Below are positions 32,471-48,927 of a stretch of DNA of 64,000 nt, in pieces. This DNA is from Corynebacterium striatum ATCC 6940 (GTDB lineage Bacteria > Actinomycetota > Actinomycetes > Mycobacteriales > Mycobacteriaceae): contig NZ_GG667523.1 of NCBI RefSeq assembly GCF_000159135.1, forward strand, positions 16,331 to 80,330, written 5' to 3'. The notes beneath the pieces are model-generated. The model saw only the letters and a list, made by a program, of their open reading frames with translations. It was not told the DNA's origin and did no database searches. The position numbers and the translations under genes are program-made. Every line of letters begins with the position of its first letter. Position 1 is the stretch's first letter.

Positions 32471-32998
32471 CTAGCTTATGAAGCCAAACCATTCCTTATT
32501 GCTTGGCAGCCACAGCAGCACAATGGCCACGATTGCGGCCAAGGAAATAGGCCATACGTGCGGTAACACAATCATGAGCACGACCAGCGCTAGGACCGCA
32601 GAAAGCCAAATGCGCGCTTTATGCTGCGCATGCAACACGTAGACGCTCAGAACGCACAACGCAACCACGACGATGGAAAGCACAACACCCAGCTCAGTAG
32701 CCAGTCGCTCGATGCGATTCAGGGATTCCGACACCCGCTCCGAAGCCACGAGCTCGAAGACGTAGTACACAATGTAGGAGGAGATGCCGAGGACGATGAG
32801 CGCGGCAATCTGCAGCGTCCACGGCGCGCGCCACGCGCTCATGTCTGCGGCCTTGCGCTTTACCTGCTCCTGCTCGGCTACCTGCCCAAAGCGGTAGTCG
32901 CTGAAGGGCGCAGCCGGCGCCCCAAACCCCTGGTTACTCTGCCCTCCTTGTGGCGGATAACCGAACTGTTGATTGCCCCGCGGGCTGCCGAAAGTCAC
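32471..32998 (-). CDS. membrane protein with FG-rich N-terminus, last gene of the tubulin-like operon
   Basis: 175 residues. The N-terminal 45 or so are Gly/Gln/Phe-rich and predicted cytoplasmic (MTFGSPRGNQQFGY, NQGFGAPAAPF). Three hydrophobic segments follow (about 60-82, 100-120, 128-165). It begins with the same MTFGSP as the first gene of the operon (48334-48927), and both have short FG-rich heads before membrane segments, so they look like diverged paralogues bracketing the operon. The start overlaps the GTPase stop by 4 nt (ATGA). The function is unknown. Confidence 0.7.
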   Translation of the reverse strand: MTFGSPRGNQQFGYPPQGGQSNQGFGAPAAPFSDYRFGQVAEQEQVKRKAADMSAWRAPWTLQIAALIVLGISSYIVYYVFELVASERVSESLNRIERLATELGVVLSIVVVALCVLSVYVLHAQHKARIWLSAVLALVVLMIVLPHVWPISLAAIVAIVLLWLPSNKEWFGFIS

Positions 32999-34008
32999 TG
33001 CACATCATCCTTAAACACACCGCGGCTGCTGAGCATCCAACGTAGAGGATCAAGAACGCGGAACGGCGCGATGCCGCTACGCGCCAGCTGCCGGCCAGTT
33101 GGCGCCTCGCCCAATGCAGAGACCGCAAAGTACTGGCGTCCATTCTGGCTGATGTTGTTGACCATATTGATGAGGTCGTTGGCCTTAAGGAAGCGCAGCA
33201 GCGAGTCAACTTCGTAGCTCAAGATGGTGGCATCATCGAAGTAGAAGTTCCAACCGGTGTCACGACGGAACGCGGCACCAGTGTTGCCCATGATTTTGGC
33301 CCACTGCGTATTCGGGTTCTGCTCGAGCTTCTGGATCGTGTCGAACTTAGAAATCGTCACCGCCAGCGGTGGTGGGGAGTCCTCGCCCATGAGGGTGATG
33401 AGGTTCTCCAGCACGCGGGTTGGTTCCGCACCCAGCTCGCCGAAGTCAGGAACCAAACCGTGCAGGTAGTCACGGATCTCTCGCTCGCGGAGCGGGTCGA
33501 AGAGGAAAATCACGAGGTCCGCGTATTTGAAGAAGGACAGCGCCTCACGGTCATCCTCACGCTCCGGCAAGTTCTCCAAGTCCTCACCTGCGACATCGCG
33601 GAACACAAGGTAATTCGTGCGCATCGTGCCTTCAGGATCTGGCCACTGGCCAAGATCGAAGATAAGCGGGTCACGCTGATACGCGTCCGTAGCCACCGCG
33701 CTCGGAGTTGGGTCCATGCTCTTCATTTCCTGGAAGAGCGGCTGCTCGTACTTTTCCTGGAAGCGCTGCTCCGTGGACTGATCCGCTGCGAATACGGAAT
33801 GGTTGTGCTTATGCGCCAACTGCTTGAGCTGCTTGACCATAACGGCGGTATACAGAGACTTTCCGGAGTTACGAGCACCTGCCATGGCCACGCAATGGGT
33901 CACGGATTCGGTCCAGTTGGGCAACAACTCACGGTTGTTATACGGGCTGACGGTAGCGCCTTCTTCCAGTGGACGGAACGTCCACGGACATGCTGCCAAG
34001 CTAGCCAT
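32995..34008 (-). CDS. TRAFAC-like P-loop GTPase (double-GTPase-like family)
   Basis: 337 residues with a complete GTPase signature set: P-loop GARNSGKS (44-51), G3-like RDVAGED with D138-V-A-G141, and G4-like SKFD (220-223). No membrane segment. The fold resembles the 'double-GTPase'/TRAFAC proteins found by comparative genomics beside GTPase-associated protein 1 (GAP1) genes, which matches the neighbour at 34960-36558. It probably acts as the GTP-driven switch or loader of the system; that role is inference. The start overlaps the vWA gene stop by 1 nt (TAATG). Confidence 0.75.
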   Translation of the reverse strand: MASLAACPWTFRPLEEGATVSPYNNRELLPNWTESVTHCVAMAGARNSGKSLYTAVMVKQLKQLAHKHNHSVFAADQSTEQRFQEKYEQPLFQEMKSMDPTPSAVATDAYQRDPLIFDLGQWPDPEGTMRTNYLVFRDVAGEDLENLPEREDDREALSFFKYADLVIFLFDPLREREIRDYLHGLVPDFGELGAEPTRVLENLITLMGEDSPPPLAVTISKFDTIQKLEQNPNTQWAKIMGNTGAAFRRDTGWNFYFDDATILSYEVDSLLRFLKANDLINMVNNISQNGRQYFAVSALGEAPTGRQLARSGIAPFRVLDPLRWMLSSRGVFKDDVQ

Positions 34009-34967
34009 TAGTACTCCTCCTTGAGCATCTCGGCGACCTGATCTGACAGGCGTGCCAGGTCCTGGTTGAACTCGCTCCCCTGCTTTTCAACGGCCTCGGC
34101 GTCAATAACAACGAAGGCCACCGCGTGGTCCCCTGCAGTTACCTTGGCAAGTTCGACCTCTTGCTTAGCGATCGGGCTGACGACGATAACCACCGAAGGA
34201 ATATCGCCTTTCAGCATCTGTGCCGTTGGACTATCAGTGACGTAGATAAACAGTGAGGAATTCGCAGAGAGATCCTCGCTGCGCCAACGGCGTTGACCCA
34301 CGCGGTCAGCACCGGCTTCGATGACGCCACGGATGAAGCTGCGCAATTCGCTCACCACGTGCTGGTCGGTGCGCTCACGACCATCGGTTGCGATGAAGCC
34401 ACTGAAGGAATCAGCGAGGGCATTGATGTACTTAGCCACCAGATCGAGCGCCGCATTGTTGACGTTGACCTGCATGGACGAGGAACTGTCGATGATTGCC
34501 GTGGCGTTCTTCAGCTCGGCGTCGTTCACCGCAGCACGCCGCATCTTGGAACGAACCTCACGTGCGGAGTCGGTAATACCCACGCCTTCAGAAGAGCCGA
34601 AGGCATCGAGGCGGAGGCGTCCACCTTCAGCGGTGAGCTCAGCCAGGCGTTCCGAGCTGTCCTCAGCACCATCGATAAGCACGCGCGGAAAGCTAACGGT
34701 GTCCTCGCCATTGGAAATGCTCAAGCGGATTTCGGTGCGCTGGCCGTAGGTTGCTGCCTCAGACGGCTTCACCTGAATCGTTGCGCGTTCCGTGATGTTG
34801 TGGATGATGTAGTACATCTTGTCGATGCGACTAAAATCCGCACCTTCACCAATGATCTCCAGCTCAATCCTCGCGCCACCTGCACCAATCTCGAAGGCTT
34901 CGACACGAATGCTGTCATTCATAGAAATGGAGCGGGAATCTCCATCCTTCAAAGTGTATTTAGCCAT
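34008..34967 (-). CDS. cytosolic vWA-domain protein
   Basis: 319 residues without signal peptide or membrane segment. The N-terminal about 120 residues are beta-rich (TLKDGDSRSISMNDSIRVEAF, FSRIDKMYYIIHN). A von Willebrand factor A-like domain follows, with the metal-site motif IDSSSSM (DxSxS, Asp near residue 159), a later LFIYVTDSPTA strand and AVAFVVIDAEAV. vWA domains bind protein partners through a Mg2+ ion, so an adaptor role beside the GTPase is likely. The start overlaps the GAP1-like gene stop by 8 nt. Confidence 0.75.
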   Translation of the reverse strand: MAKYTLKDGDSRSISMNDSIRVEAFEIGAGGARIELEIIGEGADFSRIDKMYYIIHNITERATIQVKPSEAATYGQRTEIRLSISNGEDTVSFPRVLIDGAEDSSERLAELTAEGGRLRLDAFGSSEGVGITDSAREVRSKMRRAAVNDAELKNATAIIDSSSSMQVNVNNAALDLVAKYINALADSFSGFIATDGRERTDQHVVSELRSFIRGVIEAGADRVGQRRWRSEDLSANSSLFIYVTDSPTAQMLKGDIPSVVIVVSPIAKQEVELAKVTAGDHAVAFVVIDAEAVEKQGSEFNQDLARLSDQVAEMLKEEY

Positions 34968-36558
34968 AGTCTTCTACCTTCCGTTGGCTTTGGACGTTGC
35001 GAGCAATCTCTTCAGCAATTTCCTTGATGAAGCGACCCAGATCGCTTTGTGAACCGATACCCATTCTGCACCGGTCTAATTTGATGACCCCGGTAAACCG
35101 CTCAACCACGAGAGCACGCGCTTGCGCGATTGTGTCGTCGTCGAGACCTCGCAAGATTTCGCGAACGAGGAGCTTATAAGGCGATTCGAACAGCTGGACC
35201 CAGGAGGCAATTGCCGCAGCCAAGGCGAGGGTGTAGTAACCCTCTGGGTAACAGGAGCGATCCAGAATCGCGAGGTGAATAGCACGGCCACGGTTGGCAT
35301 TCAGGTACTTCAGCCACCACGCCGGATCGTAGTTATATAGGTGCTCGATTTCTTGCTTAGTCAGCGGCGGCACCCATGCATTGGGGCGCGGAGCTGCGCT
35401 TGGCGACGCCCGGTGTTCCACCCGTGGGTGCACCGGCGCCGGGTTCACTGGCGCTGTGGACTCTGGGGTCTCTGGCGCCGGATTGACCGGCGCAGGAGCA
35501 GCAGAGACGTCAGCAAAAGGATTGGAGCTCGTTGCGTTATAGGCACCGAGTGGCTGCTGTTCTGCGAATCCCGTCGGCTGCGGTGGCCGCGGAGCCTCTG
35601 GCAGGAATGGTGAAGCTTCGGCAGCCGGAGCTTGTGGCTCGCCAAAAGGGCGCGGCTGCTCCGCCACCGTGCTTTGTTGCGGCTGCACGGCAGAGTCATC
35701 ATAGGCGCTGATATCGGGCAGGGACTCGCCCAGAACAAAGACGACCGGGTTACCTGGGATAGCACCGGCTTTAACCATCTCCATCAGGCGTAGCTTTTCA
35801 CTTTCCGGGACGACGACCATGGTCGAAGCGCCCAGCGGCAGCTCAGCGATACCCGCTGGCTTTTCAAACGTGGAGTACCCGAAGCCTTGCTCGCCGACCT
35901 CGCGGGCGGTTGCGGCAATCCACAATGCCGCCTGATTTTCTGGTGCAACGAGTACCACTAGTGACTTCTTCTTGGAAGAAAGCACCTGCGCCATGGCACT
36001 GACCAAACGCGCGTTGTAGCCGGCGTCCGGATTGGGGGTCACGGACTTAAATGGCGCCGGAAGAGTGGCAGGTTTTTGGAATTCGCCAGCCAGAAAGTCG
36101 TCGATAAGTGCATCAATAGCCAGCGGGCCCTTGCGCACGATCTTCTCCGGGATTTGTACCTTGTCCACCTCGAAGATGGAGAAAGGAGTGGGCACGTCCG
36201 GGGAGAACAGTACCTGGGCTGGCGCCGGCGGAATTCCGCCGTCCGTTACGCAGGTGTACGTGAACACATTTCCACCGCGTCCCGTGGCATCGATTCCCGC
36301 CGGAACAGAGACCATGGTGACCCACTTCTCGCCTTCCTCAGTCAGCGTGAATACAGCGGTACGGTGCACCAGCTCTGCACGCTCCTGCGCGGACGGAAAG
36401 TCAGGGATGCGAGTGCCAGTGTTCAGCGTGGTCGGGACATAAGTGATGAGCTCCTGGAGCTCTTCTGACGAGATATCGCCAACCTTGGAGCCCACTCCCC
36501 AACCACCGGCACGGCCGTTTCCGCGGGAAAAGGACGCGTAGCTAAATGCGCCGCCCAT
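34960..36558 (-). CDS. GTPase-associated protein 1 (GAP1-N2)-like protein
   Basis: 532 residues. The N-terminal about 270 residues match the GAP1-N2 pattern: YASFSRGNGRAGGWGVGSK, a central loop, then GIDATGRGGNVFTYTCV (RxGN block). A Pro/Ala/Gln-rich linker (about 300-400) contains SSNPFADVS and QPTGFAEQQ. The C-terminal domain (about 405-532) is helical. GAP1 proteins were named for their genomic link to TRAFAC-type GTPases; here the GTPase gene lies one gene away. It probably regulates or recruits that GTPase. The start overlaps the stop of the upstream gene by 1 nt. Confidence 0.65.
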   Translation of the reverse strand: MGGAFSYASFSRGNGRAGGWGVGSKVGDISSEELQELITYVPTTLNTGTRIPDFPSAQERAELVHRTAVFTLTEEGEKWVTMVSVPAGIDATGRGGNVFTYTCVTDGGIPPAPAQVLFSPDVPTPFSIFEVDKVQIPEKIVRKGPLAIDALIDDFLAGEFQKPATLPAPFKSVTPNPDAGYNARLVSAMAQVLSSKKKSLVVLVAPENQAALWIAATAREVGEQGFGYSTFEKPAGIAELPLGASTMVVVPESEKLRLMEMVKAGAIPGNPVVFVLGESLPDISAYDDSAVQPQQSTVAEQPRPFGEPQAPAAEASPFLPEAPRPPQPTGFAEQQPLGAYNATSSNPFADVSAAPAPVNPAPETPESTAPVNPAPVHPRVEHRASPSAAPRPNAWVPPLTKQEIEHLYNYDPAWWLKYLNANRGRAIHLAILDRSCYPEGYYTLALAAAIASWVQLFESPYKLLVREILRGLDDDTIAQARALVVERFTGVIKLDRCRMGIGSQSDLGRFIKEIAEEIARNVQSQRKVEDYG

Positions 36559-38798
36559 TACTGCTGCCCCTTCTGATAGTCGTTGAAATCAACCGGTTGC
36601 TGGTTAAAAGCACTCGCCGGGAAGAACAAGCGGCTAGCCACGTTGCGCTCCACCACGACGGCCTTGTCATTCTCCTTGAATTCAGAATTGAACTCCGACG
36701 AGTCGAATCCACTCTGGTTGAAGGAATTAAACACGTCGTTGCTTCCCATCCCAAAGGAGTCGAATCCGCTGTCCATCGAATTGAAACCATCAACCGCGAA
36801 CAAGCGCAGGTAGCCACCGCGCAGCGTGCGCTCATCGAGCTCCACAACAAAGTCAGGGTTCTGGAACGTGCTTTGTCCCAGTCCCTGGCTTGTGTACGTC
36901 GCCGTATTGGTGCCGGAGATTTTCAGCGGGTAACCATCCTCAGCGTAAAGCGGAAGGCGCTCTGGGTTGTAGACAACCTGGCAAGAAAATGGGCGCTTGT
37001 CGCCGCTGTCCAAGCTCGAGAGGTAAACACCAACTTGGCGAGTCGGGAAGTCATACAGGATGTCATACGTGACTGTCCGAAGTCCCGCGTATTCCAGAAT
37101 GCGCTCCTCAGCCTCGGTACGCTCGCCTGCGTACATCGCGTAAGGACGCAGACGCACGCGGTCACTGTGGCGCTCCAGGTTCAAGCGGATGCCGCCCTGC
37201 AGCTCGTAGTCTTCCTCACGCACCGTGCTCGTGCCGCTGTTGGTGGTAACTTCCACCATGGTTGCGCCCAGTGGCCAGTTGAAGGAGATGAGCTGGCTGT
37301 CCACACGCTCGATGAGGCGGACCTCATTCTCCGCGATGGGCAGGACGCGCTGCAGAACCTTTGACTCGCCCACCCAAGCATCAGCTTCGTTGAAGTTCAC
37401 CGGGGTGATGTACACCTCGTACCAATCCGGGGGCCACGCCACCGTGGTGTTTTGCGGCGAATCCGGTTGAGCAACGCCGCGCGTCTCAGTCACGGCGTCA
37501 GCAAACGCGTTCTCCACGTAGGACTTATCGATGGCCTTGGTACGCAGCTCCGGCAGCGGCGCATGCGGCGTGAGATAGATCTTGACCTCGCCGGTCTTTG
37601 GCGAGCGCCAATCGATGTCGATATTGTCATGACCTTCGACCGTGACACGCTTGCACCGAGTAATGGTCATCTTCTCGAGCTCACTGGCCAGCTTCACACG
37701 GTGCTGGACCGCGGCTTCATTAACGCTCGTCAACGTGTTGCTGCGGAACTGCGCCTGCCCCAGCAAAGACACGACCATGGTCTGGCCGGCTTCCTGGACG
37801 CGGATCGTAGCCTTGCGTCCACTGGCCTCAATGTCCTGCTCAAAGCGTGGGGAAAGCTTGTCACGCTCGTTGTCTTTGCACGCATACACGACGGCGCCCT
37901 CATGGCCATCGAGCAAATCCCAAGAGACCTGAATCGCGCCTTTGATGGTGGTGACCTTGACGTTGACCGGCGGGTAGATCACCGCGGTCTCGCCCATGAA
38001 CACCGGTTGCGCACTGATGATCTCCCCAAGGTCTTTGCCCTTGTACGCCCACACCGAATAGTGGCGCAGGCCCGACTCGCCTGGGTTATGGTCACGGTAT
38101 GCGAAGCCCTCTGTGATCATGAGAGTCTCGCCCGCCTCTGGCGACTCGATCATCTCTTTGTCATCAGCTACCACTCGATAGAGAACCATTTCTCCTGGCT
38201 GGCACTCCAGCGGCTCCCACCAGATACGCACGGGGTGGCGCGCATCGGAGCTCTCCTCCACCGACGGTTCGTAGCCGTACGCTTCTTCCTCCGGTATGTC
38301 CGACTGGGGCTGTGCAGCGGGAATCTCAATCTCGTAGTGCATCTCTGGGGCAACCCAGCCCGCAGCCTGGCGGCCTTTATAAGGCACTTTAAATGCAGAT
38401 GCAGGGAGATTGGTGTAATCATCCTCGTTAACTTGGGTGCGAGAATCCTTTGCCGCTTCCAGTTTTGCCAACTCTGCCGCCCAGTCAAACACTTTCTTGG
38501 GCTTCTGTGGCTGAGGTGATTCGTTGTGGGGGCTCATATCTTTAATCTCCGAAGTCTCGGACTGGATAAAGTTTCCGGTAACCTCCGCCTGTGGCTCCGG
38601 GTTGAGGTTGCGCGCAAAAAGCTCTGGATGCTCCACGTTCTCACCGCTGAACACTGCTGCGATTTGCTCAGCGAACTGAGCAAACTCAGGCGACAATGCG
38701 TTACGTACGTCGTCGACAGTAACGCTGCGCATCGCGTGCAAAGGCATCAGCTGTGACAGCGGAATATCCGTGATCTTTGCTGGCTGGGATTGCGTCAT
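36558..38798 (-). CDS. large beta-domain (FN3-like) scaffold protein
   Basis: 746 residues, no signal peptide or membrane segment, so probably cytoplasmic. After a variable N-terminal 110 residues comes a series of beta-sandwich-like domains with fibronectin-III-type strands (HPVRIWWEPLECQPGEMVLYRVV, YPPVNVKVTTIKGAIQVSWDLLDG, WYEVYITPVNF). The C-terminal about 90 residues include a Phe/Asn/Ser/Gly-rich segment (GFDSFGMGSNDVFNSFNQSGF). No catalytic motif is visible. It is probably a scaffold linking the tubulin-like protein, its membrane partner and the GTPase module; that is inference from its place in the operon. Confidence 0.65.
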   Translation of the reverse strand: MTQSQPAKITDIPLSQLMPLHAMRSVTVDDVRNALSPEFAQFAEQIAAVFSGENVEHPELFARNLNPEPQAEVTGNFIQSETSEIKDMSPHNESPQPQKPKKVFDWAAELAKLEAAKDSRTQVNEDDYTNLPASAFKVPYKGRQAAGWVAPEMHYEIEIPAAQPQSDIPEEEAYGYEPSVEESSDARHPVRIWWEPLECQPGEMVLYRVVADDKEMIESPEAGETLMITEGFAYRDHNPGESGLRHYSVWAYKGKDLGEIISAQPVFMGETAVIYPPVNVKVTTIKGAIQVSWDLLDGHEGAVVYACKDNERDKLSPRFEQDIEASGRKATIRVQEAGQTMVVSLLGQAQFRSNTLTSVNEAAVQHRVKLASELEKMTITRCKRVTVEGHDNIDIDWRSPKTGEVKIYLTPHAPLPELRTKAIDKSYVENAFADAVTETRGVAQPDSPQNTTVAWPPDWYEVYITPVNFNEADAWVGESKVLQRVLPIAENEVRLIERVDSQLISFNWPLGATMVEVTTNSGTSTVREEDYELQGGIRLNLERHSDRVRLRPYAMYAGERTEAEERILEYAGLRTVTYDILYDFPTRQVGVYLSSLDSGDKRPFSCQVVYNPERLPLYAEDGYPLKISGTNTATYTSQGLGQSTFQNPDFVVELDERTLRGGYLRLFAVDGFNSMDSGFDSFGMGSNDVFNSFNQSGFDSSEFNSEFKENDKAVVVERNVASRLFFPASAFNQQPVDFNDYQKGQQ

Positions 38799-38810: not shown

Positions 38811-41678
38811 CTAGAACGTATCGTCCAGATCATCGAGCGATGGTGGCTGCTGCGATTGACCGAAACCAAAAGGATTTGCGGTATTGCTGGTCTCATTTCC
38901 AAAGCTGTATCCAGGCTGAACCTGAGAAGCATTATTGAAAGAATCGATGTGATCAGTGTCATCGAGATCGCTCAGCGCATCCTCGAAGAACGCCGATGGC
39001 ACCGCTTCCTCCAGCCGCTCTTCCTTCGGCACCAGGTACTTGAAATCCGTGATACGGCCGAACTGGACCACAGTGAGAGAACGGGAGAGCTGGCTGGTCA
39101 GCTCCGTATTGCTGTCCACCTCAATAGTGCGCGTGTAGTCAGGGTCGATCTCGGTGTAGCCTGCCGAAGCACCCAGGGTGGTCAGGGCCTCATTGCTGAA
39201 GGCCTGCATTGCCCCCTTCTCTTGGCTCATACCCGCCAGGAACTGCTCTGTGGACTGCGTCTGACGACGATTCTCATCCAAGAAGGTCACCGAAGACAGG
39301 TAGTGCTGCAGCCTGCCAGCCATCCGCGGATTCGTAATCACGTTGTGCCAGACCTGCGGCTTCTCATCACGGGAAGCCATGAGTGGGTGATCTAGGTGGC
39401 GTGAGATGAGGTCGAGCTGGGTGTTAGAGTTTTCGCCGCGCATGCCCCACATAGCGCTGAGCTGTACCGAGCCTTGGCCTACTTGATTGCGCTCAAAGAC
39501 AGAGTTCATGTAATCGACGAGCGAACGCAGGGACTTGTGCGCCCAGTCACGTAAATAAACCTGGGAGCGAATCTCCTCAGCCATGCGGTTGGTTTCATCT
39601 TCCGAGACCTGCGCTTGGCCGATTCGCGCGTTATCCGGCAAGCCAGACTCTGGGGTACGCAGGTGATCACTCGTGGTGGAGTTAAGCCCGAACGGTGCGT
39701 AGATGGCACGTCCAAGGATTGCGGACCAGCTGAGGAACTGGCTGTAAGCGTTGAGGATGCGGTCGACGTCTGCAGCTGCTGACACGATGTTGCGCGCGGC
39801 AATCTCCTGGTTCTGGCGGTTGAGCTTTTGCCTTTGCACGTAATCGTAAATTTCGCGCTGTGCCTTGGTGAACATCAGCCACGTCAATAAAAGGAAGAGG
39901 ATGATCGAAAGGAGCACACCAAAGGTGGTCCAACGCCAATCGAGAGTGAGCATGCCATCCCAGATCTTCACATCTGGGTTGTAATTGGCCAAGCACATGT
40001 AGAACAGCACAACCAGAACAAGAGTCAGGATGCTCCACGACGCACGCAGCTTGTTCGTGAGTCGTCGATTTTCATCGTTGAAGTCGCGCACAGCAAAGCC
40101 TTTTTCTTCCTCGCGCAGCCTGCGTGCTTCCATTTCGTAGAAATCAACGCGCTGGCGAGCGACACCAAGACGCTGTGCCAAGCCAGTACCGACCTTCCAG
40201 GCGAAGCTGTTTTGGTTCTGATTGCGCCACGCAGCGAATTCCTGCTTCTTGCGGTTGACTTCCGTGTTCTGCGTGACCTGGCTGGTCCAGTCCAGATCTG
40301 CTGCGAACTTCTCAGCCGCAATCGGGTCGAATGGGGCCACCTTAGCCTCGGACTCGTTGTTGTAGCCCACGGTGCGGTGCATCAGCGGATGGAAACCAAG
40401 GAAGGAGTTGCTCATGTCTGGCACGGACTGCTGCCCATACTGCACGATCAGGACTTCCTGTTGGCTGCCCTTCTGCGGTGTGAAGTTGGCGTCTTCTTTC
40501 CACTGACCATCAACCAAACCAAGGGCGAAGTCGTGGTAGGCCTCCCACATACCAGACAGCTGCGGCGCCTGGCCGATGTCGAATTGCACCTTCTGCGCCT
40601 CAGCCAGGGTGCGCTGGTTCTTCTGCTGCATCTGCTGAATAGACACAGCATTGCCCTTACCAGAGTGGCCATCCAGAACGACTTCCATGTTGGAATTCTG
40701 GCCATAGAGTAGGTTCTGAAGGAAGCCCGCGGTGGCACTGTTGACCGTGCCACGGTGGCTGTTGACCCAATCCTGCGGCTTGCCGATGACCATGGCCCAG
40801 TACAGGCGCAGGTTATCGCGCAGGGCAGCCCATGCGCTGACCTTCTGCGTCTTAGGCGACTCCAACGGGATTTCAGGGGACAGCAGCGAACTCCCGTGCA
40901 TCGCGAAAAGCGTGTCGGAGTAGTACTGAGTCAGCCTCGCTGGATCAGTGACGCGCTCGGCATGGCTGTTGTTGCGCAGCTGCGGGCGCGGTAAGGGGCG
41001 GTTCGGATTGAACACGCGATCCTTGACCGCGTTCTCAACCGCGCTGGCGTCGATAGTGCGGTGAAATGCACGCACCAAACGGAAGTTCTCGCGGTTGCCC
41101 GTCTCCATGAGGCGGCCGGTGTCTGGATCAAACACCGCAGCCTGCGGCATTCCGCGCCAGAGGCCGAAGATAGATGCCACAGCAGGCGCAGCAAACTGGG
41201 CCAGTTCAAAGCCATCCTCAGTACGCGGAATCGGGCGAATACGCGTCGACGAAGGAGTGCCGCCCTCTTCCGGGGAGAGCACCAGGTTCTCCCACACCTG
41301 CAAGGGCTCGATGTGAACGTTGCGCAATGGCAACGCCGAAAGCAGGAGGCGCACTCGCTGGTTGGATGCCTGCACGATGCGGGAATCTACCGCGGCAGCC
41401 CACTGCGACAACGCCTCTGGTTGCAGGGGTTGCGCCTCATCCATCGAATCGAGAACCACCAGAAGGATGTCTCCTTCGTGGCGATGCAGGGCGTCGTCAA
41501 GCGTGGAAATGCGTGGCGTGCCCTCCGTGTCGAAAGAGCGCACTACTGGAGCTGACGTGGGGTGGGTGTAGTCCACCCACATGAAGTTATCCAGCAAGCC
41601 CACTGCACGCAGGTCGAAAAGGCGGGAACGAATCTCATCGGCCGTGGCGCCGTGTCCAAAGAACAGTACGTTAGTCAT
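38811..41678 (-). CDS. 955-aa membrane partner of the tubulin-like protein
   Basis: The N-terminal about 200 residues form an alpha/beta domain (MTNVLFFGHGATADEIRSRL, GDILLVVLDSMDEAQ). A helical region with a coiled coil follows (about 495-540), then two adjacent membrane helices (about 547-568 and 585-607) and a cytoplasmic helical C-terminal half. The extreme C-terminus is GNETSNTANPFGFGQSQQ then SLDDLDDTF. The tubulin-like protein encoded next to it ends LTDLDDTF, so the two share a terminal peptide. The start overlaps the tubulin-like gene stop by 1 nt. It may anchor the filament protein to the membrane. Confidence 0.7.
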   Translation of the reverse strand: MTNVLFFGHGATADEIRSRLFDLRAVGLLDNFMWVDYTHPTSAPVVRSFDTEGTPRISTLDDALHRHEGDILLVVLDSMDEAQPLQPEALSQWAAAVDSRIVQASNQRVRLLLSALPLRNVHIEPLQVWENLVLSPEEGGTPSSTRIRPIPRTEDGFELAQFAAPAVASIFGLWRGMPQAAVFDPDTGRLMETGNRENFRLVRAFHRTIDASAVENAVKDRVFNPNRPLPRPQLRNNSHAERVTDPARLTQYYSDTLFAMHGSSLLSPEIPLESPKTQKVSAWAALRDNLRLYWAMVIGKPQDWVNSHRGTVNSATAGFLQNLLYGQNSNMEVVLDGHSGKGNAVSIQQMQQKNQRTLAEAQKVQFDIGQAPQLSGMWEAYHDFALGLVDGQWKEDANFTPQKGSQQEVLIVQYGQQSVPDMSNSFLGFHPLMHRTVGYNNESEAKVAPFDPIAAEKFAADLDWTSQVTQNTEVNRKKQEFAAWRNQNQNSFAWKVGTGLAQRLGVARQRVDFYEMEARRLREEEKGFAVRDFNDENRRLTNKLRASWSILTLVLVVLFYMCLANYNPDVKIWDGMLTLDWRWTTFGVLLSIILFLLLTWLMFTKAQREIYDYVQRQKLNRQNQEIAARNIVSAAADVDRILNAYSQFLSWSAILGRAIYAPFGLNSTTSDHLRTPESGLPDNARIGQAQVSEDETNRMAEEIRSQVYLRDWAHKSLRSLVDYMNSVFERNQVGQGSVQLSAMWGMRGENSNTQLDLISRHLDHPLMASRDEKPQVWHNVITNPRMAGRLQHYLSSVTFLDENRRQTQSTEQFLAGMSQEKGAMQAFSNEALTTLGASAGYTEIDPDYTRTIEVDSNTELTSQLSRSLTVVQFGRITDFKYLVPKEERLEEAVPSAFFEDALSDLDDTDHIDSFNNASQVQPGYSFGNETSNTANPFGFGQSQQPPSLDDLDDTF

Positions 41679-44600
41679 TAGAAGGTGTCATCCAAGTCGG
41701 TGAGGTTGAATTCAGGCTCAAAGCGCGGGGTCTGGCTGGAAGAATCCCGGCTCGCGGGAGCCTCAAAAGTATCGGGCGTTTCAGCGACAGTCTTTGCCTG
41801 GCCCAGCAAATCGCGGATACGCTGCGCCATGACGACGACGTCCGGTGCAAGGTCGCGGTAGTACGGCGTAGCGGAGGCGACATCGCGGCGGCGAATGTTT
41901 GCAAATGGTTTGTCATCCATGCCTTGGCCCGGCAGAGAATTCATTCCACCCGGAATGAAGAGATCGGCGCCGCGGACGAACTTATCGAGCTTCGCAACGA
42001 AGGATTCATAACGATCCTGGATGCCGAGGCCGACGGCGTCGCGGGGGCCCGGCACCTTGCCATCGCGCAGGAACTTAGCCAGACGGTGGACCAGTGGGTG
42101 CGTCGAAGCACCGGAGTGCGCAAAGTCCTGGCCGTCGTCGTAAAGCCCGCGCAGCAACTGGTACGGGTACAAGGAAGAGGCAAAGCCGTATGCGCCATTC
42201 TTTTGTACCTTCGCGTAGGCGATGAAGATGGACTCAAGCACAGAAGACATCCAGTCGGCCTTCTTGACCATACGGCGCGGGGAAATCAGCATCGGGTTCG
42301 GGAAAGGAACCCAAGCATTGACGCCACCTGGGGTGTCATCGAAGATGTGCGCCGCGGCCTTGTCGGTGTCCTGATCGGAGATGTGGATGAGGCCGGTGAT
42401 GCGGCCGATGATCCATCCTGCCACCATGGCCTGGCGCTCCGTCTCGGTGATCGGTAGAGCGGCAGCTAGCGGGCGTGTGCGGCGCTCCGACCAATAAGAG
42501 CCATCGAAGTTTTCTTGCTTGTCGATGTCCTCGGCGATGTAGCCGAACATGGAAGAAAATACGATCGGCGAGTAGTTCGGGTAGGAACCAAAGATTTCGA
42601 TGTGCTGGACCTGCTCAGACATGTTGAGCGAGTTGCGCAGCGCTACCTGGGATGGCTCATCGATGGAAGACGTGCTCAGGATGCTGCTCAGGCGTGGGAC
42701 AATGCCAGTCTCTTCGTTCCCCAGCGCTTCGAACGGAATGTCCGAGAAAGAGTAGGTGTACTGGACGTCCTTGCCGTGGATGCGCTGGACCATGTCGCTG
42801 GACACGGCAGCCAACGGGCGGGCGTAGCTCAGCGCCATCTGGAAGGCACTAACGAAGCGATCGATGCGCTGGCTATGCTCAACCTCGTTGATATCTGGGG
42901 TAAGCGTCAGGTAGCTGCGCAGATCCACTGAGTTGAACTTGTGGAACTCGTAGTCGCGGCGGTTGATCCAATCGCGAGCACGTCCCAGCAGGTCCGCCGG
43001 ACGGATACGTGCACGGTACTGGGCACGCTGGGACTCGCGACGCTCCCCGGTCTGCGGATGCTGCGACAGGTGCTTGGATACCCAACCTGCACGGTTGCTG
43101 TATTCATCGTTGGTGCGCTTCTGCGGCGCCAGCGTATCCCGCGGTGCCTTGTTGGCATCCAGCGAATCCCACTCGCCGCGAATGACCGCACGCACCGCGA
43201 ATGGGTAAGCCTGATCGTAATGTTGCACATCGGCAGTGGACTGCTGGCCCTGAATGGTGCGCAACATCTGGGTTTGGTAGTCGGTGATAAACGCGTTGAC
43301 GTCGGTCAACATGATTTCGTTTTCCGCGCCCTTGAAGCGGGACTCAACGACCTCGTCTACTTCCTCCGGCCAGGCGTTGACCTCGTTGGTGCGAACGTCT
43401 GCCAGCTTGTTGGTCTCCGGGCGTGACTGTGCTGCCTTCTCGAGCACCTTATGGGCGTCGCCAAGCTCACGCTGCAGATGGAAGAGGTTCTCGTCGACGT
43501 AATCCTGCAGAACGTCCTGCAGAATATGCGCCGTAGCCAACAGGAAGTAGTGATAGAACTGCTGGTGATAAAGGCCCAGTAGAGCGTTGACAGTCGGCGT
43601 TGGATCCGTCATCTGACCCTTGCCGGTCAGCGGGCTAAGGATCGGCTCCGCGCCTTGCGGAAGCGCAAGCACGGCGAAGTTCTGGAAGGAATTAGAGAAC
43701 TCATTAAGCTGCGGCTGCAGGCGGTCGCCGCTGGCCAAGACGTCCTTGACGCGATCGAGCATCTCGCGAACATAAGGCAGGCCCACTGCCGCCAACTCGC
43801 CCTCGACCGTGCTCAAGACCTTGTCTGAGAAGAAGTTAGCGAAGCGATAGGTGGTGTCATACGCCGCCTGTTGGAGCATTCCCGCGATGTACTGCTGGTT
43901 CTGTGGATCGCTCAGGTTCTGGATGAGCTCGCCACGCCACTCGTCTACCTTGCGGCCCTCGCCGATAGGAATGAAGTTACGCAGGTTGCGCACTGCGTTT
44001 TCCGCGGCGGGCTGGGCCATCATATTGAAATTGGCCATCAGCCAGTTCCAGGTAGTGTTGATATCAATCGGAGCGCCCGTTGCCCAGTTAGGGTCCAGAG
44101 TCATCTCCTGGAAGCGAGCAGGTAGACGCTCATCGAGGCGCTTAGCAATTTGTATCTCGCCAGCTTCCGGATTGGCCTTGTCAAGGTGGCCGTTGAGCAA
44201 ACGGTCGAAAGAACTACGGGCCAGGCGCTGTGCGGAATACTCAGCGAAGCGGTCACGGCCCATGGAAATCTGTGCGTAACCCAGAGAGCCCCAAGGCAAG
44301 CGTGCCCACGGCGTACCGCCCTGGGACTGATCACGGTCCCAACCGAAGAAGCGGCGGCCGCCGTCACCGGATGGGGTGTTGGTCAGTGCGTAGGAAACCA
44401 GGTTGTCAGAGGCACGGGTCGAGGCCATCAAGCCCGCAAGCGCGCGGCCAAGGCCACGGTAGACGGACATCGCGGAGCCATCGCCGAAGCGGGAGCCGGT
44501 TGTGCCCATCTTGGAACCGATTGGGAAAATACGGCCGAATGTCGGACCGTCCGGCGGGGTGCCCATGTCGAAGGCCTCGAAGATGGCGCGGTCATGCGCG

Positions 44601-45352
44601 GTGGAGTTGCCCATCTGGGAAGCCACAACCTCGCCGAACATGGCCAGGGAATTCGGCCACGCACCGGCCATGTCCTCTGCCTTGTTGTCGGAGAAGATCT
44701 CCGGGGTGTACATGAAGACCAGCGTGCTGGTGGGATCGAGATTCTTGATGGTGGTCAGAACGCGGCAGACATCCAGGAACATCGAAGCGCCTGCGCCGCC
44801 TGCCATGGAGGAAACAACCAGCACAACCGGCGCGGAGGAACCAGTATCGGTGCGCTTCTTCGACTGCTTGTAATTGAGCTCGTTGAGCTCCTGGATAGCT
44901 TCCTGGGTAAACATCTCAGACACCGCCGCGTTCAATGCGTTGCGGATGTCCCTCAGGTGGCGCAGGGTCAGGATGCGGCCGATGGCGCGGTACTGGCCGG
45001 CGCCGTCGGCAAGCTTCGTGTCATTCGATTGCGGCGTACGCGAAGCCCACGTGGCGATCTCGCCCAGCTTGCCGGAGCGGCCCAGCGTTTCAGAGATACC
45101 CGCGTCGAACTGGTTGTAACGCTGTCGTGAACCGATGCCGACGTACTGGCCACCGCTCTGGGTAACGTTCGGCAGCTTCTGCGGGCCAGCCTCCTCTTCG
45201 AGGGGCACATCGATGTTCACAAACTGCCACGCCTTGGGCAGCTCGGTAATGTCTGGATCGATGGTGCGCAGCTCCGCCTTGAGCTGGTCCATGATAAAAG
45301 CCAAGGTCTTGGCGCCGGAGCCACCGCAGCCAACTACGAGGAACTTCTTCAT
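41678..45352 (-). CDS. tubulin/FtsZ-superfamily protein (Tubulin_2-like, 1224 aa)
   Basis: The N-terminal GTPase domain has the superfamily signatures: GCGGSGAKT (8-16), the T2-like FVNIDVP (44-50), GAGQYRAIGR (117-126) and the tubulin signature SSMAGGAGAS (181-190, equivalent of GGTGTG). About 800 further residues of mostly helical sequence follow, ending EFNLTDLDDTF, which resembles the acidic-hydrophobic C-terminal peptide of FtsZ. Three times the size of FtsZ. Distant tubulin-superfamily proteins linked to vWA genes have been proposed to act in membrane remodeling. Probably a GTP-dependent polymer or scaffold, the core of this operon. Confidence 0.8.
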   Translation of the reverse strand: MKKFLVVGCGGSGAKTLAFIMDQLKAELRTIDPDITELPKAWQFVNIDVPLEEEAGPQKLPNVTQSGGQYVGIGSRQRYNQFDAGISETLGRSGKLGEIATWASRTPQSNDTKLADGAGQYRAIGRILTLRHLRDIRNALNAAVSEMFTQEAIQELNELNYKQSKKRTDTGSSAPVVLVVSSMAGGAGASMFLDVCRVLTTIKNLDPTSTLVFMYTPEIFSDNKAEDMAGAWPNSLAMFGEVVASQMGNSTAHDRAIFEAFDMGTPPDGPTFGRIFPIGSKMGTTGSRFGDGSAMSVYRGLGRALAGLMASTRASDNLVSYALTNTPSGDGGRRFFGWDRDQSQGGTPWARLPWGSLGYAQISMGRDRFAEYSAQRLARSSFDRLLNGHLDKANPEAGEIQIAKRLDERLPARFQEMTLDPNWATGAPIDINTTWNWLMANFNMMAQPAAENAVRNLRNFIPIGEGRKVDEWRGELIQNLSDPQNQQYIAGMLQQAAYDTTYRFANFFSDKVLSTVEGELAAVGLPYVREMLDRVKDVLASGDRLQPQLNEFSNSFQNFAVLALPQGAEPILSPLTGKGQMTDPTPTVNALLGLYHQQFYHYFLLATAHILQDVLQDYVDENLFHLQRELGDAHKVLEKAAQSRPETNKLADVRTNEVNAWPEEVDEVVESRFKGAENEIMLTDVNAFITDYQTQMLRTIQGQQSTADVQHYDQAYPFAVRAVIRGEWDSLDANKAPRDTLAPQKRTNDEYSNRAGWVSKHLSQHPQTGERRESQRAQYRARIRPADLLGRARDWINRRDYEFHKFNSVDLRSYLTLTPDINEVEHSQRIDRFVSAFQMALSYARPLAAVSSDMVQRIHGKDVQYTYSFSDIPFEALGNEETGIVPRLSSILSTSSIDEPSQVALRNSLNMSEQVQHIEIFGSYPNYSPIVFSSMFGYIAEDIDKQENFDGSYWSERRTRPLAAALPITETERQAMVAGWIIGRITGLIHISDQDTDKAAAHIFDDTPGGVNAWVPFPNPMLISPRRMVKKADWMSSVLESIFIAYAKVQKNGAYGFASSLYPYQLLRGLYDDGQDFAHSGASTHPLVHRLAKFLRDGKVPGPRDAVGLGIQDRYESFVAKLDKFVRGADLFIPGGMNSLPGQGMDDKPFANIRRRDVASATPYYRDLAPDVVVMAQRIRDLLGQAKTVAETPDTFEAPASRDSSSQTPRFEPEFNLTDLDDTF

Positions 45353-45424
45353 CTGCTCTTAAAACCTTTCGGGATGTCTCTTTAAGTGTTCAACTTGTGC
45401 GTTCTGCTTGCGTTCTGGTTCGGA

Positions 45425-48334
45425 CTAGTTGTTTCCGAAGGAAGGCCCCTGCGGCCATCCACCATTATTGCCGCTTGGTCCGTTGCCCGGCTGGCCAAAG
45501 CCTCCCTGGTTACCCGGTTGGCCAAAGCCTCCCGGCTGGCCGCCTTGGTTACCCGGTTGGCCAAAGCCTCCCTGCGGACCTGGTTGACCGAAGCCACTTT
45601 GGCCACCTGGATGGCCGAAGCCGCCCTGTTGGCCTGGCTGACCAAAGCCGCCCTGCTGGCCGAAGCCGCCTGGCTGGCCCGGCTGACCAAAGCCACCCTG
45701 CTGCCCCGGGAACTGCTGCACTGGAGCGTTAGCACCCGGCGCGTTCTGCCGTGCCTGTACACCTTGTGCGCCTTGCTCTCCCTTCGGGCCCTTTGGCGCC
45801 TTCGGCTCCTTCGGCGCTGGGAACTGCACCTGCTCGAAGAGCACCGGTGCGGAGCGGTTAATCTCCTCGGAAAGCTCGTCGTACTTTTCGGCATGTGCCA
45901 TCGTGTCGATGGTCAAGACGATCTCGCCGCGGTCCTTGTCATTCGCGTTGCCCACGAAGAACCAGTTGTTCTGAACTGCCAGCGGCAAGATGGCGCGGCC
46001 ACCGGACTGCTTGCCCTTGCCGGAGATGGAGCCGTCCTTTTCAATTTCCACGTGTGCCGCGGTAAATGGGCTAAGGCCCATCTTTACCTTTGCCTCGTAC
46101 AGGCCCAGGTTTGCCCGGCGCGGCGCGGCGTCGACAGGCACTGCGCCCTGGAACTCGTCCTTGGAAACCACAAACGGCTTGCCGGTATCCGTGCGGATGA
46201 GGCTCGTGCCGTCCTTCTTGACCGGAATCGTCTTCGCGAACATGCGCGGGGATTCAGGGATGCGGCCCGAGAACCACTTCATGAAGTAAAGAACTGCCAG
46301 CGGAATCAGAAGGCCCAAAAGGACCGCCAGCACGAATGCCAGGCCGAAAGCGCTCTTGCTCAAAGGCGTGGTCATCGAACCCTTGAGCTGCAAAGGCAGC
46401 TGCGCTTCCTGATTATCTTCCGCAGACTGCAAGCTCAGCGTTGGCTTGAGCGCCAATGCGCCGTCTTCCATATTTTCGGCAGAAAGGGTCACAGGCAGCG
46501 TCGCCTCTTCGCCCTTGGCCAGCTCAAGCGCGTTATCCGCGGAATCGTGCTGCGAGGTTACCTTCAGCGCATCCACGCCCTTCGGCAGCGTGGCCTCATC
46601 AGCGCCGAAGCTCTGCTCCGCCAGCCACACCTTACCCGGACCAGCTACCGGAACATCGATCGTGACTTCCTTTTCCGTCATCGACACCACCTGTGCCGAG
46701 CCGACGGAAGGCATGTTGACCGGGGTAATCGTCAGCGGGGTTTCACTCTTGATGGGGTTGAGCTTGGAGCCCGGCTGATTATCGACGCCCTGCGTGGTGA
46801 TGTCCACGCTGGTCACCAGCTTGCCCGCGGCAACGTTTTCGACCTTATCCAACGGGATATCCACTGCGTTGCCGTCCACGATCGGGGCGTTTTCGAGCAG
46901 CGTCACTGACTCGCCCTCTTCGGGGACGAACTCCGCGCGCAGCATGCCTTGGCCTTCGAGCTTGCGCGGCTGACCGCCGCCGTCGACAAGCTGTGCCTTA
47001 ATGACTTGGTCGGAGTTGATGCCGCCGCTTAGCTTCTCACCGTTTTCGCGCTGCAGGTTGAGGTTCAGCCCCGGAATCATCACCATAGATGCCTGGTACT
47101 CGCCCTCGGCGCCGCCCTCCAGCTTGTAGCCAAAGGTCCACTTGCCGGCCCAGCCTTCGCCACCCTTCTTCATCGCGACGTCGACCATGCCCGGCAGGCG
47201 GTCATTGGTGGTGATCTCCACGTCGGCGCCGGCGACCTTCTTGGTATCCGGCTTCAGCTCTACCGTTTGCCCATCAGGGCCGGTGAGAGTCGGGATGATC
47301 TTGCCTTCTTCCACGCTGGTCTTCGGAACCGCGGACAAGCGGACCGGGTCGACCGAGTTATCCAGGAAGAAATCGAATTGCTCGGTGAAAGTACCTTCCT
47401 TTTTCAAGCCACCGGAGGTAGGAATGAGATTACGGAAGGCCGCGAACAATGCGGCGGGATCCTCACCGCCGTTGAAGAAAGCACCGTTCGGTTCGCCCTG
47501 GCCACAGCCCTCGCCTTCAGCCAGATCGGTGAGAAGCTCCGTCTGTTCCTTCGCATCGCGCTCCGGTACGAGGCCGACGTTGAAGAGGCGGATATTGGAC
47601 TGGCGGAAGGCGGAAACCGTGGAATCCGGGGTGCACAAAATGTTGCGGGCTGCTGCGTTGTCCTTGCCGGTCTCAACGCCTACGTAGGCGCCGTCGGTGA
47701 AGAAGACGATCGCGCGGCAATCGCTGCCATCATGATCGCCAAATTCCTTGAGCGCGCCCGAGTAGGCCAGGCCATAGTCGGTCTCTAGGTCAGAGGTGCG
47801 CTCCTTGTTACGGAAAGCGTCAATCTCCTTGTCCAAGGCACCGGCGTTTCCGGAAACATTGGTCCAGCCACCATACTCGCCGGCCTCGGAGTAATAGCCG
47901 GAGCCGAATCCGGCAAGCTTGACATTGATATCCGCGCCGGCGTCCTTGCCCAGGTTGGCCAGCTGATTGACGATGTCCTTGGTGGCATCAACACGGAAGT
48001 GGGAGCCATCGGTGGCGGGTTCGCCTTGGTAACCGATGAGGGACTGCGACTGGTCGAGCACGAACAACAGGTCCGCGGATTTCTTATCCGCGATACACGA
48101 GCTGAAGTCCGCGAGGTTCTTCTGCGAGGCTTCGGAGAGGCTGCTTTCGGAGGCCTGCGGAGCTTGTTCTGGTGGGGCTTGTTCTTGTGGTGCTTGTTCT
48201 GCTGGCGGGGCCGCTTCGGGCGCTGGTGCTTGCTCAGGCGCTGGTGCTTCTTGCGCGGAAGCTCCCAAGGAACCTGCGAAACCGCACAACAATGCGGTGC
48301 TGCTGAGAGCGAGGAGACGATTGAGTTTTCGCAT
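45425..48334 (-). CDS. surface vWA-domain protein with signal peptide, membrane anchor and GFGQPG repeats
   Basis: 969 residues. Signal peptide (1-27, cleavage near ASA-QE), Pro/Ala/Gln/Glu-rich linker (28-62), a vWA domain with MIDAS LDQSQS (Asp94, Ser96, Ser98), about 350 residues of beta domains, one membrane helix (about 655-680), then a cytoplasmic domain of about 200 residues and a C-terminal run of GFGQPG-type repeats (about 880-969). It therefore joins an external ligand- or wall-sensing domain to an internal FG-rich tail. The start overlaps the upstream gene stop by 1 nt; 72 nt separate it from the tubulin-like gene. Confidence 0.8.
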   Translation of the reverse strand: MRKLNRLLALSSTALLCGFAGSLGASAQEAPAPEQAPAPEAAPPAEQAPQEQAPPEQAPQASESSLSEASQKNLADFSSCIADKKSADLLFVLDQSQSLIGYQGEPATDGSHFRVDATKDIVNQLANLGKDAGADINVKLAGFGSGYYSEAGEYGGWTNVSGNAGALDKEIDAFRNKERTSDLETDYGLAYSGALKEFGDHDGSDCRAIVFFTDGAYVGVETGKDNAAARNILCTPDSTVSAFRQSNIRLFNVGLVPERDAKEQTELLTDLAEGEGCGQGEPNGAFFNGGEDPAALFAAFRNLIPTSGGLKKEGTFTEQFDFFLDNSVDPVRLSAVPKTSVEEGKIIPTLTGPDGQTVELKPDTKKVAGADVEITTNDRLPGMVDVAMKKGGEGWAGKWTFGYKLEGGAEGEYQASMVMIPGLNLNLQRENGEKLSGGINSDQVIKAQLVDGGGQPRKLEGQGMLRAEFVPEEGESVTLLENAPIVDGNAVDIPLDKVENVAAGKLVTSVDITTQGVDNQPGSKLNPIKSETPLTITPVNMPSVGSAQVVSMTEKEVTIDVPVAGPGKVWLAEQSFGADEATLPKGVDALKVTSQHDSADNALELAKGEEATLPVTLSAENMEDGALALKPTLSLQSAEDNQEAQLPLQLKGSMTTPLSKSAFGLAFVLAVLLGLLIPLAVLYFMKWFSGRIPESPRMFAKTIPVKKDGTSLIRTDTGKPFVVSKDEFQGAVPVDAAPRRANLGLYEAKVKMGLSPFTAAHVEIEKDGSISGKGKQSGGRAILPLAVQNNWFFVGNANDKDRGEIVLTIDTMAHAEKYDELSEEINRSAPVLFEQVQFPAPKEPKAPKGPKGEQGAQGVQARQNAPGANAPVQQFPGQQGGFGQPGQPGGFGQQGGFGQPGQQGGFGHPGGQSGFGQPGPQGGFGQPGNQGGQPGGFGQPGNQGGFGQPGNGPSGNNGGWPQGPSFGNN

Positions 48335-48927
48335 TAGGCGCCCATCACCTTTCCTACGTAGAAGGCGATCTCCACCGCAGAGGCAACAACGAGTACGAAG
48401 CCGCCGATCATAACGAGGCGGTAGACCAGCGTCTGGCGCGTGTCCTCAATGTAGAAGCTCTCTGCTTGGCGCTTGGTGTTTTGCAGGGTGTACAGGCCAA
48501 GGAGCACGAAGGCGACGATGCCTGCAAGCACCCAACCGGTAATTGCCAGTCCAAAGAAGAGGCCTTGGGTCGCAGTGGAAACCAACGGCGCGGCAATCAC
48601 GACGATTGCAGACAAAATGGCGGCCACACCAGCGGCGATGAGCAAAGGCCACGGGCCCTTGGTCGGCGCGGCCGGAGTGGCTGGGCGCGAGCTGCGCGGC
48701 GCGCTGGGCTGCCCGCCCGGTGCGCCAAAGCCCTGGCTGCCTTGTGCGGGGCCAGCTGCGCCAAACGACGGCGCGGTGCCTCCTGCTTGATTCGGCGAAC
48801 CGAAGTTAGGGGAACTCGGGAATCCGAAACCCGAGCCGGCGTTGTTGGGTCCGGTATTGGACCCGCTGCCCGCTCCGGGGTACGGACCGCCAAACTGGGG
48901 CGACGAACCAGGCGAACCAAATGTCAT
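48334..48927 (-). CDS. membrane protein with FG-rich N-terminus, first gene of the tubulin-like operon
   Basis: 197 residues. An FG-rich cytoplasmic head (MTFGSPGSSPQFGG, SGFGFPSSPNFGSP, QGSQGFGAPGG, about residues 1-85) precedes three hydrophobic segments (about 90-112, 118-140, 170-190). I chose ATG 48925-48927 because aaaagg lies 9 nt upstream and because the last gene of the operon starts with the same MTFGSP. The frame continues upstream to 49020 with a hydrophobic stretch that I judge fortuitous. The function is unknown. First gene, so its upstream region should hold the operon promoter. Confidence 0.7.
   Translation of the reverse strand: MTFGSPGSSPQFGGPYPGAGSGSNTGPNNAGSGFGFPSSPNFGSPNQAGGTAPSFGAAGPAQGSQGFGAPGGQPSAPRSSRPATPAAPTKGPWPLLIAAGVAAILSAIVVIAAPLVSTATQGLFFGLAITGWVLAGIVAFVLLGLYTLQNTKRQAESFYIEDTRQTLVYRLVMIGGFVLVVASAVEIAFYVGKVMGA

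Follow-up and report, generated by a model that had tools for sequence, protein, structure and literature searches.

The 64,000-nucleotide stretch of DNA analysed here, called the window throughout, belongs to contig NZ_GG667523.1 of Corynebacterium striatum ATCC 6940 and carries, at window positions 32471-48927, a block of nine minus-strand genes in which a tubulin-like gene stands together with vWA, GAP1, GTPase and membrane-protein genes (Table 1). All nine open reading frames (ORFs) are present and are packed with overlaps or small gaps, the junctions from gene 1 to gene 9 being -1, 72, -1, 12, -1, -8, -1 and -4 bases. Gene 1 (197 amino acids, aa) is taken to start at the ATG at 48927, the mechanical ORF being longer with a TTG at 49020, and no sigma-70 promoter was found upstream of it by a consensus scan. 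A sequence-only reading of the window had described nine overlapping or near-overlapping genes that unite tubulin, GTPase, GAP1 and vWA proteins in one membrane-associated unit, and this description is confirmed by the ORFs and their short junctions, by the Pfam calls, and by hydropathy, which gives transmembrane (TM) segments in genes 1, 4 and 9 and also in gene 2. The same reading had regarded the unit as a candidate undescribed system, a claim that does not stand because Kaur et al. (2020; PMC7159879) had already predicted the same gene combination.

The cassette is the actinobacterial tubulin theme of the GAP1-N2/DO-GTPase systems, a class already known in silico. In the part of the account of Kaur et al. 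(2020; PMC7159879) that is available, actinobacterial systems of this class are predicted in silico, a role in biological conflict is predicted for the GAP1-N2 systems, and the tubulin theme is described as having a single tubulin gene with an alpha-helical extension in Actinobacteria and two in Firmicutes, with an HRDC-fused FNIII (fibronectin type III) protein and a membrane-bound vWA protein as partners, in mutual exclusion with VMAP-ternary systems and in association with a multicellular habit. The cassette in the window has the same DO-GTPase, GAP1-N2, tubulin gene with a long C-terminal extension and membrane-bound vWA protein, together with a probable FNIII scaffold. It differs in that the HRDC of their FNIII protein was not detected in gene 5, and in that gene 4 is modelled here as a second, membrane-embedded tubulin whereas theirs is a single tubulin gene; the available part of their account makes no mention of shared tails or of FG-rich tails. 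Earlier, the FtsZl1 family was described together with vWA and GTPase genes and membrane remodelling was proposed (Makarova and Koonin, 2010; PMC2875224); in a comment printed with that paper, a reviewer names cgR_2627, a vWA protein of such an operon in Corynebacterium glutamicum. Gene 3 belongs to the same family (Tubulin_2, PF13809) and has the same association with vWA and GTPase genes, whereas in our loci these form a fixed eight-gene cassette with GAP1, and the accessible part of the 2010 paper does not describe gene 4 as a tubulin. Beyond these in-silico papers of 2010 and 2020, no experimental study of the cassette was found in searches of open-access papers. What looks new is the matching of the tails of genes 3 and 4 and the candidate role of gene 4 as a membrane-embedded second tubulin fold, to which the structural assignment of a tubulin fold to gene 3 can be added.

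Gene content and order were computed directly, starting from a search for gene 3 over 201 Corynebacterium genomes, 64 of which have it, each in a single copy. The 57 loci compared are those of the window and of 56 of the other 63 genus hits (G012, G024, G046, G091, G114, G130 and G139 were left out), and 56 of them have all of genes 1-8, complete and in identical order on a single strand, the sole exception being L086, where a contig end cuts the locus after gene 4. The nine genes of the sequence-only reading thus stand in part: because gene 9 was found in only 25 of the 57 loci, the constant unit is one of eight genes. Genes 3 and 4 occur jointly, since a gene 4 profile at E<1e-30 has matches in 64 genomes and these are the same 64 as for gene 3; six further genomes, whose gene 4 matches have E near 1e-4 and are confined to a part of the membrane coiled coil, were set aside. 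A scan of the genome collection gave 228 relatives, and the best 80 of these were taken as named actinobacterial loci, from Corynebacterium, Mycobacterium and its relatives, Rhodococcus, Gordonia, Williamsia, Nocardia, Arthrobacter and its relatives, Propionibacteriaceae and others. Genes 1-8 are in the same order in 69 of the 80, while the other 11 are without one or more genes, mostly at cut ends, and L158 (23,480 bases) is without gene 8 and has long gaps. The members of the cassette are therefore kept together rather than varying freely from genome to genome. Tubulin_2 is rare in a sample of the phylum (10/296 genomes), and the C. glutamicum genome matches Tubulin_2, GAP1-N2 and DO-GTPase2.

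Pfam matches of the window proteins are given here as over or under the family cut-off, and tests of family members were made on 24 sequences per gene at E<=0.1. Gene 3 matches Tubulin_2 (PF13809) over the cut-off with E=1.1e-44. Its model, of residues 1-700 of 1224 (56 sequences; predicted local distance difference test, pLDDT, 81; predicted template modelling score, pTM, 0.52), was compared with known structures by VIA-align, in which the best chance match typically reaches Z 7-8, or 14 for mostly helical models. All 50 matches listed are tubulin, FtsZ, CetZ or tubulin-assembly entries (Z 14.5-16.7), the best among them being CetZ 3zid_A, with Z 16.7 and a root-mean-square deviation (rmsd) of 3.0 over 214 residues. 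The putative nucleotide loops contain the invariant columns G8, G10-S12-G13, G185-G186 and G188-A189-S190-M191 in the 56 sequences. Foldseek gave no match for the model at E<=0.001, and the gene 3 profile fails to match PDB tubulins. Gene 3, as modelled, has a tubulin fold, in agreement with the tubulin-like character given to it by the sequence-only reading, and it is the one tubulin gene recognised by sequence in its own genome.

Gene 4, which has no Pfam match, had been taken in the sequence-only reading for a separate 955-aa component, and this assignment is not borne out by the model, which has a tubulin fold, or by the tail that it has in common with gene 3. In the full-length model (64 sequences, pLDDT 84, pTM 0.75), every one of the 50 matches listed by VIA-align is titled as a tubulin, CetZ or tubulin-assembly entry (Z 9.5-10.4; rmsd 4.1-5.0 over 224-249 residues), and the alignments span both tubulin domains, from chain residues 1-3 to 367-403, with the model end at 885-893. 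As read from the model, a nucleotide-type domain (residues 1-264) is followed by a helical insert that includes a membrane hairpin (546-604) and then by a second domain (684-892), so that gene 4 appears to have the second tubulin fold of the cassette, interrupted by a membrane insert, and for this the modelled evidence is good rather than decisive. There is no conserved glycine-rich loop in the alignment of the N-terminal domain; GTP binding is therefore not expected, and for the same reason gene 4 is referred to as a tubulin-fold protein and not as a tubulin GTPase. The idea that genes 3 and 4 are homologous in sequence was rejected, as hhalign finds nothing between them, and likewise nothing between the N-terminal domains alone.

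The proteins of genes 3 and 4 in the window end alike, in DLDDTF, and the pattern DLD[DE]TF before a stop occurs twice in the whole genome, at the ends of these two genes. A tail score was defined as the BLOSUM sum over the last six residues and was compared within genomes and between permuted genomes. For the 57 Corynebacterium loci the within-genome mean for genes 3 and 4 is 16.2, against 2.0 +- 1.2 on permutation, a value that none of 2000 permutations reaches, and the remaining 27 pairs among genes 1-8 all have negative mean scores. With 17 representatives under 55% identity the figures are 10.1 and -0.7 +- 1.8 (0/5000 permutations). In the clade of the window (10 loci) the last six residues are 100% identical in gene 3 and 97% identical in gene 4, while at residues -17 to -36 identity is 51% and 22%, respectively, and between Corynebacterium clades the tail sequences of both genes differ. 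FtsZ also combines a tubulin fold with a variable linker and a short conserved C-terminal tail, which binds SepF, but its [VIL]P[SD]F core is kept in 15 of 15 genomes chosen for their differing gene 3 and gene 4 tails, whereas the latter change together; mimicry of the FtsZ/SepF tail was therefore rejected. The tails are probably a motif for docking on a separate receptor, which in turn is probably encoded by the cassette.

Outside Corynebacterium the proteins have in common a general type of end. In the counts for other genera, which leave out the 27 Corynebacterium loci of the named set as that genus was already counted, F is the last residue of gene 3 in 43/53 loci and of gene 4 in 48/52, and a common general type of end remains because this ending prevails in both genes. 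An end of the form P..G..hydrophobic, which was defined after looking so that its counts are descriptive, is found there in gene 3 in 50/53 loci and in gene 4 in 39/52, against 0 to 5 of 27-50 for the other genes; within Corynebacterium it is found in 28/57 for gene 3 and in 28/57 for gene 4. The match within a genome was rejected as a rule for all Actinobacteria, as it is seen in Corynebacterium only.

Hydropathy makes genes 1, 4 and 9 membrane proteins with 3, 2 and 3 segments, and gives gene 2 a signal peptide-like segment and one TM segment at residues 664-682. The match of gene 2 to VWA_2 (E=0.0013) is under the cut-off in the window protein, and 21/24 family members match. FG/GF dipeptides are above the shuffle mean in the first 70 residues of gene 1 in 47/57 Corynebacterium loci and in the last 120 residues of gene 2 in 48/57, and these FG-rich tails are probably cytoplasmic. 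None of 24 members of gene 5 matches fn3 or HRDC; the gene 5 profile does match a protein with fn3 that is encoded in genome G156, at a DO-GTPase locus of HSP70 type (E 3.7e-17). Gene 6 matches GAP1-N2 (PF20013, E=2.1e-16) over the cut-off and GAP1-M (PF20014, 7.4e-4) under it. Gene 7, which sits between the GAP1 gene 6 and the GTPase gene 8, has a weak vWA assignment (vWA-TerF-like in 8/24 members, with a DSSSS stretch resembling a metal ion-dependent adhesion site, MIDAS); a TerD-like N-terminal domain for it was a guess, and Pfam gives the weak vWA-TerF-like part alone. Gene 8 matches DO-GTPase2 (PF19993, E=4.5e-11) over the cut-off, and GARNSGKS, DVAGE and SKFD are visible in it by eye. 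PADLOC models gave one weak match among the nine genes, to gene 1 (E=0.072), and none at E<=0.1 to the other eight. Genes 9 (32471-32998) and 1 (48334-48927) have like starts (TFGSP) and three TM-like segments each, and gene 9 may have arisen as a copy of gene 1 that has since diverged.

Table 1. Genes, domains and tails of the cassette, in window positions.
Feature	Position	Strand	Basis
Gene 1, three TM-like segments after an FG-rich N-terminal tail	48334..48927	-	
Gene 1 FG-rich tail, about residues 1-94	48646..48927	-	FG/GF counts
Gene 2, secreted-facing vWA receptor, one TM, FG-rich C-terminal tail	45425..48334	-	VWA_2; hydropathy
Gene 2 vWA domain, residues 88-275	47510..48073	-	Pfam VWA stretch, under cut-off in window protein
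Gene 2 FG-rich tail, last 120 residues	45428..45787	-	FG/GF counts
Gene 3, tubulin-like, 1224 aa	41678..45352	-	PF13809, E=1.1e-44
Gene 3 tubulin nucleotide domain, residues 1-364	44261..45352	-	Structural match to CetZ 3zid_A
Gene 3 C-terminal tail DLDDTF	41681..41698	-	Tail comparison
Gene 4, membrane protein, 955 aa, modelled second tubulin fold	38811..41678	-	Model; co-occurrence with gene 3
Gene 4 N-terminal tubulin-type domain (modelled), about residues 1-264	40887..41678	-	Model secondary structure; boundaries by eye
Gene 4 membrane hairpin, residues 546-604	39867..40043	-	Two hydrophobic segments
Gene 4 second tubulin-type domain (modelled), about residues 684-892	39003..39629	-	Model; boundaries by eye
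Gene 4 C-terminal tail DLDDTF	38814..38831	-	Tail comparison
Gene 5, probable FNIII-type scaffold	36558..38798	-	Profile match to fn3-bearing protein of HSP70-theme locus
Gene 6, GAP1 (N2 and middle domains)	34960..36558	-	PF20013, E=2.1e-16; PF20014 under cut-off
Gene 7, beta domain and cytosolic vWA	34008..34967	-	vWA-TerF-like in 8/24 members at E<=0.1
Gene 8, DO-GTPase2 switch	32995..34008	-	PF19993, E=4.5e-11
Gene 9, optional small membrane protein, start like gene 1	32471..32998	-	Found in 25/57 Corynebacterium loci

The cassette lies at more than one kind of chromosomal site, with three flank types marked by a queuosine-transporter gene (11 loci), a groEL-like gene (8) and an rpoC-like gene (6), the latter two being presumably such genes, as judged from their sequences. 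Gene 3 was compared with FtsZ in 15 genomes chosen for tail diversity, a set in which gene 3 values are compressed, and its divergence has no positive correlation with that of FtsZ (rho -0.20 and -0.18). Two close pairs are concordant (the window with L040, and L060 with L062); identities are discordant in L079 and L082 (FtsZ 90%, gene 3 40%) and in L060 with L063 and L064 (FtsZ 67%, gene 3 52-55%). As a test of vertical descent this comparison is suggestive only; the flank types and the discordance with FtsZ together suggest lateral exchange of the cassette. Between the window and its nearest relative, G036 (L031), nucleotide identity drops from ~0.95 to 0.74 where gene 3 gives way to gene 4, about position 41600, and this step is likely to be a recombination endpoint inside the cassette.

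Of the ten neighbouring genes that were scanned, eight could be placed in transporter, tRNA-modification, metabolic or envelope families and one only weakly, and PADLOC gave three low-scoring matches in two of the ten; a defence island was rejected, the neighbours being mostly housekeeping genes. Carriage by phage or plasmid was likewise rejected, as no relatives were found in IMG/VR or in phage records and the plasmid relatives are two large Rhodococcus plasmids, of 1.1 and 1.4 Mb. Next to the cassette, a convergent 500-aa gene at 30914-32416 has no NCBIfam match at E<=1e-10, and it is only 46-52% identical in the 9/10 close relatives where it was found, compared with 85-99% for the queuosine-transporter gene on the opposite side. 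Farther away, a pair of tRNA-Ser(gga) genes is found at 19737-19825 and 20168-20256, ~340 bases apart.

Distant relatives retain parts of the arrangement. In L210 (genome G484) genes 1-4 match the profiles and genes 5-8 have no match within 20 kb, the gene 4 homologue (4587-7838, minus strand) is fused to a trypsin domain (E 1.3e-28), and the ends of genes 3 and 4 are DPLI and NDLI. In L213 (G457) gene 3 is followed by a homologue of gene 4 (hhalign E 2.2e-15), the ends being DTGV and DSGI, and in L212 (G328) the gene after gene 3 has no similarity to gene 4. L205 carries, at 11641-17420, a Tubulin_2 gene (E 1.1e-51) and then a gene that matches Tubulin_2 only weakly (E 5.7e-4), which hints at the level of sequence at tubulin pairs elsewhere in the phylum. 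A system of the HSP70 theme, comprising HSP70, an fn3 protein, two DO-GTPases and GAP1-N2, is found in L203 (G156:C33:78000-97999) at 777-10687, and G156, a Corynebacterium genome, carries it as well as the tubulin cassette. The two systems are alike in the DO-GTPases, in GAP1-N2 and in the fn3 protein, which matches the gene 5 profile, and differ in that the former has HSP70 in place of tubulins and no profile match to genes 1-4, 6 and 7. PF19993 was rejected as a marker of such systems as it over-matches, only one (L203) of eight loci around extra matches holding a second system. In the other seven, L197-L202 and L204 (from G045, G191, G051, G042, G162, G077 and G018), PF19993 lies outside the cassette and no gene 1-9 profile matches at E<=1e-3 except for a weak gene 4 match in L201.

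Order, joint occurrence and tails all speak for a joint action of genes 3 and 4, and the membrane parts place them at the membrane. The cassette may therefore encode a membrane-anchored two-tubulin machine, as an actinobacterial tubulin version of a GAP1-N2/DO-GTPase system, a reading for which we regard the chances as evenly balanced. In such a machine, gene 2 would bind an outside ligand by means of its metal-dependent vWA domain and the signal would pass to a cytoplasmic module of genes 5-8, with an FNIII-type scaffold, GAP1, vWA protein and DO-GTPase switch. Depending on its GTP state, the switch would allow gene 3, as a cytosolic GTP-binding tubulin, to assemble onto gene 4, the tubulin-fold protein embedded in the membrane that has no glycine-rich loop. 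Both tails would dock on one common receptor, probably a product of the cassette, and genes 1 and 2 would use their FG-rich tails to concentrate the parts beneath the membrane. DO-GTPase and GAP1 are likely to be the switch and the external vWA protein the sensor. The earlier proposal of a surface sensor that signals to a GTP-driven polymer is likewise an inference. The most likely output would be an inducible membrane-associated barrier or remodelling on outside challenge rather than a housekeeping skeleton, as the patchy and apparently laterally exchanged spread favours a response to outside challenge over housekeeping. In its most specific form, in which gene 4 would be a transmembrane pseudo-GTPase tubulin that seeds or anchors gene 3, the clade-specific tail a coupling code, and the vWA receptor with DO-GTPase and GAP1 the control, the proposal falls a little short of an even chance.

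Several results weigh against a two-tubulin machine. The model of gene 3 ends at residue 700. The Z near 10 of gene 4 is above the usual chance best of 7-8 and below the 14 of mostly helical models, and gene 4 has a long helical insert; its model has no Foldseek match at E<=0.001, and no sequence profile ties it to tubulin, a test with little power because the gene 3 profile misses PDB tubulins too. The assignment of gene 4 as a tubulin thus depends on one AlphaFold model and one aligner. As to the tails, pairs 3-7 and 1-4 are also above permutation (z 3.8 and 2.9) with negative mean scores, 79 of 5000 permutations reach the observed value when 5 representatives under 45% identity are used, the own partner is the best tail match in only 4 of the 17 representatives, and in 52 non-Corynebacterium loci the within-genome match is 0.77 against 1.96 on permutation. 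A receptor for the tails was not found.

Two published ideas offer other functions. In the conflict system of Kaur et al. (2020; PMC7159879), genes 2 and 5-8 would sense an invader and set off assembly of the tubulins, an effector that would contain phage or block the cell. The gene classes are the same as in that prediction, and a patchy spread (64/201 Corynebacterium genomes), varied chromosomal sites, discordance with FtsZ and the trypsin fusion on a distant gene 4 homologue are all consistent with it, but genes 1-8 are constant rather than variable in Corynebacterium, PADLOC gives nothing beyond the weak match to gene 1, the neighbours are mostly housekeeping genes, and a solitary clade can keep one site. 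The constant gene set and ordinary neighbours weaken a simple defence-island interpretation, and we consider the conflict role a serious but minority possibility. An ordinary envelope function, as proposed by Makarova and Koonin (2010), in which a GTPase-controlled tubulin pair would shape membrane or make vesicles, agrees with the four proteins that have membrane segments, with the extracellular vWA domain and with the membrane hairpin modelled within the tubulin fold of gene 4. That 137/201 Corynebacterium genomes are without the cassette is unsuited to a basic envelope role, and the history is discordant with FtsZ, making this function rather doubtful.

Other alternatives concern the parts of the proposed two-tubulin machine. 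The structural match of gene 4 might reflect a common alpha/beta arrangement, gene 4 then being a membrane scaffold unrelated to tubulin, for which the missing sequence support, the Foldseek result and the lack of a glycine-rich loop all speak; this we consider unlikely, in that all 50 listed matches are of tubulin type and span both tubulin domains, and gene 4 adjoins gene 3 and has its tail. The tails themselves, as short hydrophobic C-terminal ends after variable linkers, might be degradation or processing signals that would balance the amounts of both proteins instead of docking them, but they change between clades, which is unexpected for a conserved cell protease, and such a role appears improbable.

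To our knowledge, a membrane-spanning insert within the fold is not known from any tubulin, and a search of open-access papers found no such case. If the modelled fold of gene 4 is true, a bacterial tubulin polymer would have its own seed built into the membrane, and the cassette would be a natural example of a tubulin pair in which only one partner is a GTPase. The matching tails of the two proteins make the in-silico predictions, of FtsZl1 machines and of DO-GTPase conflict systems, directly testable in C. glutamicum.

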